DNA from: Actinomycetes bacterium
Lineage (GTDB): Bacteria; Actinomycetota; Acidimicrobiia; Acidimicrobiales; Acidimicrobiaceae
Length of the DNA stretch: 39,850 nucleotides
Assembly (NCBI GenBank): GCA_021777475.1
Contig: JAJYDM010000012.1
Coordinates: 1 to 39,850, forward strand
Direction: 5' to 3'
Shown here: positions 16,458 through 17,620 of the stretch, in pieces
Numbering within the stretch: position 1 is the stretch's first letter
How the letters are laid out: the number at the start of each line of letters is the position of its first letter
Position numbers and translations under genes: made by a program
The notes under the pieces: model-generated
Database searches by the model: none
What the model was told of the DNA's origin: nothing
The model's input: the letters and a program-made list of their open reading frames with translations, nothing else

Positions 16458-17069
16458 CTACTGAGACTTGCCGTTCGGTGAACTCTCATTCCCAGATGGT
16501 GCTACTGAATGATGTTCATCTTTGGAGCTATTTGTCTTAATTGCACTCCGCTTGTCAGGACCCAGCACCATAATCATGTTTCGACCATCAAGCTTTGGAA
16601 CTGACTCCACTTTCCCCGCACTCTGAGCCTCCTCCGCTATCCGGTCAAGAATGCTCTTTCCAAGCTCTGGGTGATATAGCTCCCGTCCCCTAAACATGAT
16701 GGTGATCTTGACTTTGTGTCCTTCCTGAAGGAACTTGATCACCTGTCTGGTCTTGGTGTCAAAATCACCCGCACCGATCTTTGGCCGGTATTTCATCTCC
16801 TTCATCTGCGCGCCCATAGACTTTCTGCGGGATTCCTTGGCCTTCTGGGCGGCATCAAACTTAAACTTGCCATAATCCATGATTCGACAGACTGGGGGAA
16901 CAGCCATAGGAGCCACCTCAACGAGGTCCAAGTCCATCTGCCTGGCCAGCGCCATTGCTTCGTGGAGGCTCTTAATTCCAAGCTGGGAACCGTCTGGATC
17001 TACAAGCCGAACCTCTTTAGCCCTGATTCGGTCATTGATACGAGGCTCGTTTGTTGTGGGTGCGACTAT
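16458..17069 (-). CDS. infC: Translation initiation factor IF-3, apparent AUA start
   Basis: IF-3 binds the 30S subunit, blocks premature subunit joining and rejects non-canonical start codons. The frame has an ATG at 16955, but this would remove most of the N-terminal domain. In-frame sequence upstream reads NEPRINDRIRAKEVRLVDP, then GSQLGIKSLHEAMALA, the classic IF-3 N domain. No ATG, GTG or TTG occurs before the in-frame stop at 17078-17076. The best start is ATA at 17069, with AAGGAG 9 nt upstream, giving 203 residues. The C domain has KMKY-like EMKYRPKIG and VKITIMFRGRE. A polar tail of about 30 residues ends the protein, as in many actinobacteria. Confidence 0.93.
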   Translation of the reverse strand: MVAPTTNEPRINDRIRAKEVRLVDPDGSQLGIKSLHEAMALARQMDLDLVEVAPMAVPPVCRIMDYGKFKFDAAQKAKESRRKSMGAQMKEMKYRPKIGAGDFDTKTRQVIKFLQEGHKVKITIMFRGRELYHPELGKSILDRIAEEAQSAGKVESVPKLDGRNMIMVLGPDKRSAIKTNSSKDEHHSVAPSGNESSPNGKSQ

Positions 17070-17078
17070 TCGGCATCA

Positions 17079-17084
17079 CTCCTT
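17079..17084 (-). promoter_or_regulatory. Shine-Dalgarno site deciding the infC start
   Basis: AAGGAG on the minus strand is followed by TGATGCCGA (9 nt) and then the ATA codon at 17069 in the IF-3 frame. The ATG inside that spacer is out of frame and reaches a stop after 14 codons, so it cannot encode IF-3. No comparable site precedes the internal ATG at 16955, which lies inside conserved domain sequence. Confidence 0.75.
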
Positions 17085-17290
17085 CATCACCAACTACAAA
17101 ATCTCTTTCATAGTTTCAAACCGTGCACGAAAAAGCGAAGGCGACAAAAGATCTTGCCTATAATCAACCCTGTCTACTTTGGGAGCGACAAGGTGGGAGC
17201 CAAAATCTGCTTGCTCCGCTTTCTCATTAAACTTCCAAAGTAGTCTAACAGCACATTTCAATAATTGACACCAGAGCGGAGAAATGCAAC

Positions 17291-17620
17291 ATGTCAAGCA
17301 CTTCTGATCAAGTTCAGCCGGAGTCTGATGACGCGAAAATTGAGAACGAAGACGGTACGGCCAACCTCGATCAGCTACGAAAAGAAATACTCGCATCGAC
17401 GCCTGAGGTAATCATTGCCAACCACTGCTTCGGGTTGTTTGAGCTGGCCGCGATCTATCTTTCCGACAGCCCTCCACAACTCGGACCAGCCACACTGGCA
17501 ATCGACGCCCTTGCGGGAATCACCGAAGCCCTCAAAGGACGTCTGGGCAATCATGAGCAGGAGTTGTTGGAGGGAGTGTCACAATTGCGCCTTGCCTATA
17601 TTCAGGTTTCGGCACTTTGA
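17291..17620 (+). CDS. DUF1844-like small protein divergent from infC
   Basis: A 109-residue acidic protein. The first 40 residues are polar and probably disordered (MSSTSDQVQPESDDAKIEN...). The rest looks helical and amphipathic (PEVIIANHCFGLFELAAIYL, then PATLAIDALAGITEALKGRL, then LEGVSQLRLAYIQV). This matches, from memory, the DUF1844 proteins that sit next to infC in streptomycetes and relatives; no biochemical role is established. The ATG has GGAG 9 nt upstream. A TTGACA at 17264-17269 is too close to the start to serve with a normal -10. It is divergent from infC across about 220 bp, a layout that would allow shared control. Confidence 0.75.
   Translation: MSSTSDQVQPESDDAKIENEDGTANLDQLRKEILASTPEVIIANHCFGLFELAAIYLSDSPPQLGPATLAIDALAGITEALKGRLGNHEQELLEGVSQLRLAYIQVSAL

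Follow-up and report, generated by a model that had tools for sequence, protein, structure and literature searches.

How does translation of infC, the gene of initiation factor IF3, begin when its reading frame reaches the first protein domain without passing a canonical start codon? The question is posed by a locus in the window, i.e., the whole analysed stretch of 39,850 nucleotides, which comes from a genome (G000) of 2.28 Mb in 139 contigs, 96% complete, whose closest relatives are metagenome assemblies that bear the labels Acidimicrobiaceae, Actinobacteria or Actinomycetes; in IF3, the nearest of these is 99% identical. On the minus strand, infC is followed by rpmI (ribosomal protein L35, 16150..16341), rplT (ribosomal protein L20, 15739..16104, from the ORF list and Pfam) and a gene for a SpoU-type rRNA methylase; upstream lies a divergent gene on the plus strand (17291..17620) that resembles DUF1844 at 24.5 bits, below the Pfam cut-off of 27. 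The original prediction held that infC starts at AUA behind a Shine-Dalgarno sequence, as a variant of the autoregulated start of Escherichia coli infC, and that standard gene callers would miss or truncate the gene.

The start site of infC in the window

As read from the sequence, the infC frame is closed upstream by an in-frame TGA (17078-17076, minus strand; 17076..17078 on the forward numbering), after which the codons run TGC CGA ATA GTC GCA CCC ACA ACA AAC GAG CCT, i.e., C R I V A P T T N E P, the onset of the IF3 N domain, NEPRINDRIRAKEVRLVDP, coming directly after the second ACA. A search for ATG, GTG or TTG between this TGA and the N domain found none, as had been claimed. The ATA (17067..17069, minus strand), three codons after the TGA, is preceded by the Shine-Dalgarno sequence AAGGAG (17079..17084, minus strand) across the 9-nt spacer originally described, and the same 9-nt spacer recurs in 62 of the 92 distinct Acidimicrobiales contexts compared below. 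Read from the ATA, infC comprises 203 codons and a stop (16458..17069, minus strand), and its product gives near-complete matches to both domains of a two-domain IF3: Pfam IF3_N at residues 11-79 (profile positions 1-69 of 70) and IF3_C at residues 88-171 (profile positions 2-85 of 86).

The earliest in-frame ATG (16955-16953), which is the canonical-start call, stands 38 codons downstream of the ATA, and the mechanical list of ATG/GTG/TTG open reading frames gives 165 aa from it as against 203 aa from the ATA; the anticipated truncation thus applies to any caller set to begin at the first in-frame ATG, GTG or TTG. Since IF3_N occupies residues 11-79, a start at this ATG would lose residues 1-38 and with them the first 28 N-domain positions, so that the N domain does begin upstream of the ATG, as had been stated. 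That the true start is nevertheless ATG 16955, the conservation upstream being accidental and IF3 lacking the first part of its N domain, is extremely improbable: this ATG comes before any other canonical codon of the open frame, but no Shine-Dalgarno sequence was found before it in the window, and its position varies among relatives, the distance from the ATA or ATC to the next canonical codon ranging from 11 to 64 codons across the 92 contexts. Moreover, codons 10-38, which encode the start of IF3_N, change mostly silently within the genus (64 synonymous and 27 nonsynonymous changes in 232 comparisons). Over the same 11 to 64 codons, the median loss of IF3 to a first-ATG/GTG/TTG caller is 33.5 codons, and this is the extent by which the AUA reading revises where an essential gene begins.

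The immediate surroundings of the ATA are more constant still. Codons 1-9 show 0 differences in 72 comparisons within the genus, with no synonymous change, and the initiation region from -33 to +29 around the ATA (17041..17102, minus strand) is identical in the 9 genus genomes compared. This constancy exceeds what a start codon and a Shine-Dalgarno sequence seem to need; in predicted folds the Shine-Dalgarno sequence is paired with upstream sequence in 6 of the 9.

A second alternative takes the ATA for an inner isoleucine codon, with translation starting elsewhere, either at an out-of-frame ATG followed by a frameshift or at some other upstream codon. An ATG does overlap the TGA out of frame (17076-17074), 2 nt after the Shine-Dalgarno sequence; it is, however, too close to that sequence and absent in a number of relatives, e.g. 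in TGAAGTCGAATA contexts, while in the window the TGA rules out an in-frame start further upstream. An inner isoleucine would also mostly be ATC, which accounts for 844 of the 1057 isoleucine codons in the bodies of these genes, and this alternative is accordingly very improbable. On this evidence infC is very probably translated from AUA 17069-17067, positioned by the strong Shine-Dalgarno sequence, and we infer initiation with fMet at the AUA codon.

Start codons in Acidimicrobiales and across Actinomycetota

The comparison with relatives drew on 110 infC loci, 30 from genomes related at the level of the order or more closely (with the window's own locus among them) and the best 80 of 260 contigs. 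Dropping 18 identical contexts and a second copy of the window (L001) gave 92 distinct 210-nt contexts, window included, among which near-identical rows remain. The script that chose the start was free to pick ATG, GTG, TTG, CTG, ATA, ATC or ATT up to 12 codons from the conserved core. The aligned infC 5' ends carry ATA in 69 and ATC in 23 of these 92 Acidimicrobiales contexts, and ATG, GTG, TTG or ATT in none; bases 1 and 2 are A and T throughout (92/92), and base 3 is A or C. AUA is one transition away from AUG, which occupies the aligned start in 0 of the 92. A Shine-Dalgarno sequence stands at 4-13 nt in 91 of the 92 contexts, and in 72 the frame, followed upstream to a stop or for 60 codons, contains no ATG, GTG or TTG; against an AUA/AUC start, the other 20 have such a codon further upstream, at least 9 codons before the core.

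Another 26 Acidimicrobiia loci, inspected manually (L142-L167, of which L144 duplicates L110 of the 92), divide equally between ATA (13) and ATC (13); in four of them (L145, L157, L164 and L166) the ATA lacks a Shine-Dalgarno sequence by the pattern used. The genus was examined for close relatives that start at an ATG or GTG elsewhere, and none was found. In the order-level relative L159, an in-frame ATG lies two codons before the IF3 core and nearer to it than that locus's ATC, and by the pattern used the ATC has a Shine-Dalgarno sequence and the ATG has none. The tblastn matches of the window's IF3 in two relatives (L024 in G017 and L030 in G048) each cross one in-frame stop, and a search of a plasmid collection returned IF3 of other organisms.

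Ordinary isoleucine usage does not account for these starts: ATA makes up 59 of 1057 isoleucine codons (5.6%) in the corresponding gene bodies, as against 69 of 92 at the start. The binomial figure for this excess, 3e-66, is overstated because the rows are related. An altered code in which AUA is read as methionine was considered and rejected, AUA also occurring at inner places as those 59 codons. Loci that start with ATC are richer in G+C (64.7% vs 61.1%) and poorer in inner ATA codons (1.5% vs 6.9%). Base composition may therefore decide whether A or C is used, with G avoided. Taken together, the conserved AUA/AUC and the lack of a canonical start before the domain strongly support the AUA start on comparative grounds, and suggest that selection keeps start-codon control of the IF3 type across a whole class whose members are known mostly through metagenomes.

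At the level of the phylum, an even draw of 149 Actinomycetota genomes at least 90% complete yielded 147 with IF3_N, all of which were read. The automatic call, i.e., the codon positioned by the best Shine-Dalgarno sequence, is a crude one; it gave ATC in 46, ATA in 44 and ATT in 6 (96 AUA/AUC/AUU together), GTA in 15 and GTC in 9 (24 together), CTG in 1, a canonical codon in 10 and no call in 16. Almost all of the GTA/GTC calls (22 of 24) are made up by two whole families, f36 with GTC or GTA in 9/9 genomes (GTC 7, GTA 2; L114, L122, L133, L134, L139, L232, L233, L263 and L267) and f40 with GTA in 13/13 (e.g. L179 and L215); the GTC calls of L187 and L201, outside this count, are doubtful. 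In 9/9 genomes of f36 and 9/13 of f40, an in-frame stop lies at most 20 codons upstream of the core and the interval is free of canonical codons, and the aligned spacing is 8 or 9 in the two families and 8 in the window. GTC or GTA thus appear to be the most plausible infC starts in f36 and f40.

In the gene parts available, the valine codons of f36 are GTC 62, GTG 41, GTT 7 and GTA 3, and those of f40 are GTG 34, GTC 30, GTA 10 and GTT 3. Judged by these counts, the fixed GTA of f40 is unlike ordinary valine usage, and GTG, a codon acceptable to IF3, is apparently avoided as the infC start in both families. Their GUA and GUC have two mismatches to AUG. We know of no IF3-repressed GUA or GUC start besides the GTC of Streptomyces sigR, and the survey makes it testable which triplets serve as starts sensed by IF3.

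Inspected by eye, the 16 genomes without a call include five (L112, L173, L180, L203 and L220) with ATA or ATC at a fitting place and eight (in f43, f55 and f63) that seem to start at TTG or GTG and lack a Shine-Dalgarno sequence. The canonical calls of L214 and L194 are doubtful. Six families (f43, f53, f55, f60, f63 and f67) look canonical for infC, with TTG, GTG or ATG, and a non-canonical start is therefore not indispensable in the phylum. The three remaining genomes (L138, L251 and L257, of family f33, genus g102) have AGGAGG followed 6 nt later by TTC or TTT, and in these three no AUN, GUN, CUG or UUG was found at start distance.

A structured leader RNA upstream of infC

Upstream of the initiation region, the minus strand of the window encodes a conserved element that we describe by the covariance model R1, which its core (17164..17229) matches at 41.1 bits. 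Two helices are defined in alignment A2: helix A (17196..17217) pairs 17217-17213 with 17200-17196, and helix B (17167..17194) pairs 17194-17187 with 17174-17167, pairs being changed on both sides at 3 of 5 and 7 of 10 positions, respectively. A2 was built from the 84 loci that carry the leader motif given below, of which 13, including the window's own copy L002, were lost where the 3' side of helix B fell outside a list of eight hexamers; 63 diverse loci were left, and 13 were omitted as wrongly cut or near-duplicates, so that A2 consists of 50 relatives and the window. The 15 pairs of the two helices are formed in 93.9% of cells, with 10 pairs and 47 cells changed on both sides (5.5 and 12.9 in shuffles); none of 500 shuffles reached any of five measures, and slid versions were 28.6-52.5% paired, although A2 favours pairing because rows with an unrecognised helix B were dropped and the structure was named from the same sequences. 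RNAalifold alone gave 13 pairs, nearly the same as helices A and B, and on the full leader of 71 sequences it gave no useful structure.

A second set comprised 44 loci outside A2, 12 of the lost rows among them. R1 matches 35 of these at E ≤0.01, the nine without such a match being L147, L149, L158, L160, L162, L165, L166, L170 and L220. In the 35, the pairs are held in 94.0% of cells, and 9 pairs and 42 cells are changed on both sides as against 5.8 and 12.9 in shuffles, a pair count reached by 1 and a cell count by 0 of 500 shuffles; this alignment leans towards R1 because it was fitted to the model. As judged from covariation in the two separate sets of loci, the leader RNA is structured.

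Single-sequence folds add a possible long-range pairing of 17225-17214 with 17140-17129 (17129..17225, minus strand). Because 17217-17214 would take part in both this pairing and helix A, the two are possibly mutually exclusive. This pairing is favoured in the folds of L002, L003 and L004 and not in six others of the genus; the longest run averages 6.7 over 83 relatives vs 5.3 in shuffles, and 28 reach at least 7. The folds within the genus disagree: in L002-L004 the partner of the CGCTTTTT stretch is the 5' arm, in L006, L007, L008 and L010 it is the Shine-Dalgarno sequence, and in L005 and L009 the Shine-Dalgarno sequence is paired further upstream. The predicted folds make it possible that the leader acts as a conformational switch.

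The motif itself, AAGCGG or AAGTGG followed by CCACC within 50 nt, occurs upstream of infC in 84 of the 92 Acidimicrobiales contexts as against 13 of 1840 mononucleotide shuffles, and a match to R1 in L104 brings the leader to 85 of 92. Seven loci of one genus of the window's family (g4; L016, L022-L026 and L028) have neither the motif nor a match to R1, and keep the ATA start. In the window's genome, the infC leader is the only R1 match at E ≤0.001; in relatives the matches have the orientation of the gene and precede the IF3 core by 67-232 nt, the order infC-rpmI-rplT having been read in the window.

A wider search with R1 covered 96 sources, namely the window, 33 further Acidimicrobiia loci and 62 loci of other classes, and returned 38 matches at E up to 1. 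At E ≤0.01, 22 of the 33 Acidimicrobiia loci match, one of which (L144) duplicates a training sequence, and a second match in L169 is on the opposite strand (E 0.043). Any match at all was given by 11 of the 62 loci of other classes; nine of these are weak (L124, L140, L180, L184, L185, L193, L208, L209 and L221; E 0.0012 to 0.81) when taken singly, yet every one is on the strand of the gene and 100-220 nt upstream of the IF3 core; the other two are misplaced, far away in L126 and on the opposite strand in L139. Some of the weakly matching loci we take to belong to Streptomyces and Mycobacterium. No convincing match was found in the seven g4 loci or in the 15 of the 110 loci L112-L221 that stood outside the 96 sources. 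When 100 genomes of the phylum were searched whole, under stricter filters, R1 matched in 8, comprising 5 of the 9 Acidimicrobiia genomes, all five adjoining infC, and 3 of the 91 others (G132, G112 and G090), none adjoining infC. The leader is thus well supported in Acidimicrobiia by these sequence matches, with gaps inside the window's own family, and its presence beyond the class is at most suggested.

The possibility that the element is a known Rfam family was rejected, no covariance model of Rfam 15, that of the L20 leader included, matching in the window or in 12 relatives; the leader is a concrete candidate, outside Rfam 15, for operon control in Acidimicrobiia. A scan of the window's leader for a sigma-70 promoter or a terminator found neither. 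Terminator scans of relatives showed a strong terminator-like stem of 11 pairs with T6 after the leader core in L084, and a 5-pair site only in L102 and L029.

Proposed control of infC and comparison with known systems

In every feature testable from sequence, the window matches the known pattern of autoregulated infC, and feedback of IF3 on its own AUA-started gene is probable. AUA would be poorly read by the initiator tRNA and, as a start codon without a 3' G, rejected by IF3. With free IF3 plentiful, its own message would thus rarely be initiated, and with IF3 short the message would be read more, a loop like that of E. coli in which only the codon differs. The codon classes on which this rests are set out in a review, where AUG, GUG and UUG, with their 3' G, are described as escaping IF3 and AUU, AUC and AUA as not doing so, and where the central U is named as the sole universal feature of start triplets (PMC4611024).

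An AUA or AUC could also be a plain weak start that holds IF3 low without any feedback. Sequence does not distinguish the two, and non-canonical starts gave about 10 percent, once up to 30 percent, of the output of AUG in the S. aureus reporters of other genes described in PMC13009471, as plain weakness would have it. Against this stand the role of IF3 as the factor that senses exactly this class of codons (PMC4611024), the feedback on E. coli infC, which PMC5472188 treats as established, and the pairing of a strong Shine-Dalgarno sequence with a poor codon, which would be odd if low output alone were wanted; plain weakness is thus unlikely, and IF3 feedback is the reading followed here.

The conserved folded leader would add a second control to the operon, in the manner of the L20 leader of B. 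subtilis. It is probably such a second control of infC-rpmI-rplT, with L20 as its most likely ligand, as in Bacillus, and with IF3 or another ligand possible. A broader picture, to which we give an even chance, is that in much of Actinomycetota infC is kept at central-U triplets without the 3' G accepted by IF3, namely AUA, AUC, AUU and, for two entire families, GUA or GUC, and that an uncatalogued leader with the core AAGYGG..CCACC controls infC-rpmI-rplT in Acidimicrobiia and perhaps phylum-wide, so that IF3 and a second regulator, perhaps L20, would act through two separate devices on one transcript.

Searches confined to open-licence PMC papers did not turn up an AUA start of infC in Acidimicrobiia, GUA/GUC infC starts or this leader; PMC9845219 cites an arXiv survey on genes with a preference for non-AUG starts, and this survey may overlap with the part on start codons. 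In M. tuberculosis, infC has a 326-nt 5' UTR, which is aligned with the infA 5' UTR in the source reporting it (PMC3207917).

Among the systems described, the infC of E. coli, with its autoregulated ATT start (PMC5472188), shares with the window the IF3 gene, a start without a 3' G and the same presumed feedback, and differs in using AUU where Acidimicrobiales have AUA or AUC; the window's infC also heads infC-rpmI-rplT behind a folded leader. Streptomyces, of the same phylum, starts infC with ATC, the alternative codon of 23 of the 92 contexts, and has in sigR an IF3-repressed GTC start (PMC5472188), a codon that recurs as the likely infC start in one family (f36); the window, in contrast, uses ATA, sigR is another gene, and the IF3 tests described in that source concern sigR. 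S. aureus, of another phylum, has the same gene with the same AUA codon, observed by ribosome profiling (PMC13009471). The view of AUA as a variant start therefore stands, and it is less new than originally supposed, given the AUA of S. aureus and the ATC reported for Streptomyces. The arrangement of B. subtilis is similar in that infC has a non-canonical start, ATT (PMC6097659), and infC-rpmI-rplT lies behind a leader, there controlled by L20 (PMC10931766); the leader of the window, however, matches neither the Rfam L20 leader nor any other Rfam family. Set beside these systems, the AUA start of infC is of an already known kind, and the leader and the GUA/GUC families are less expected.
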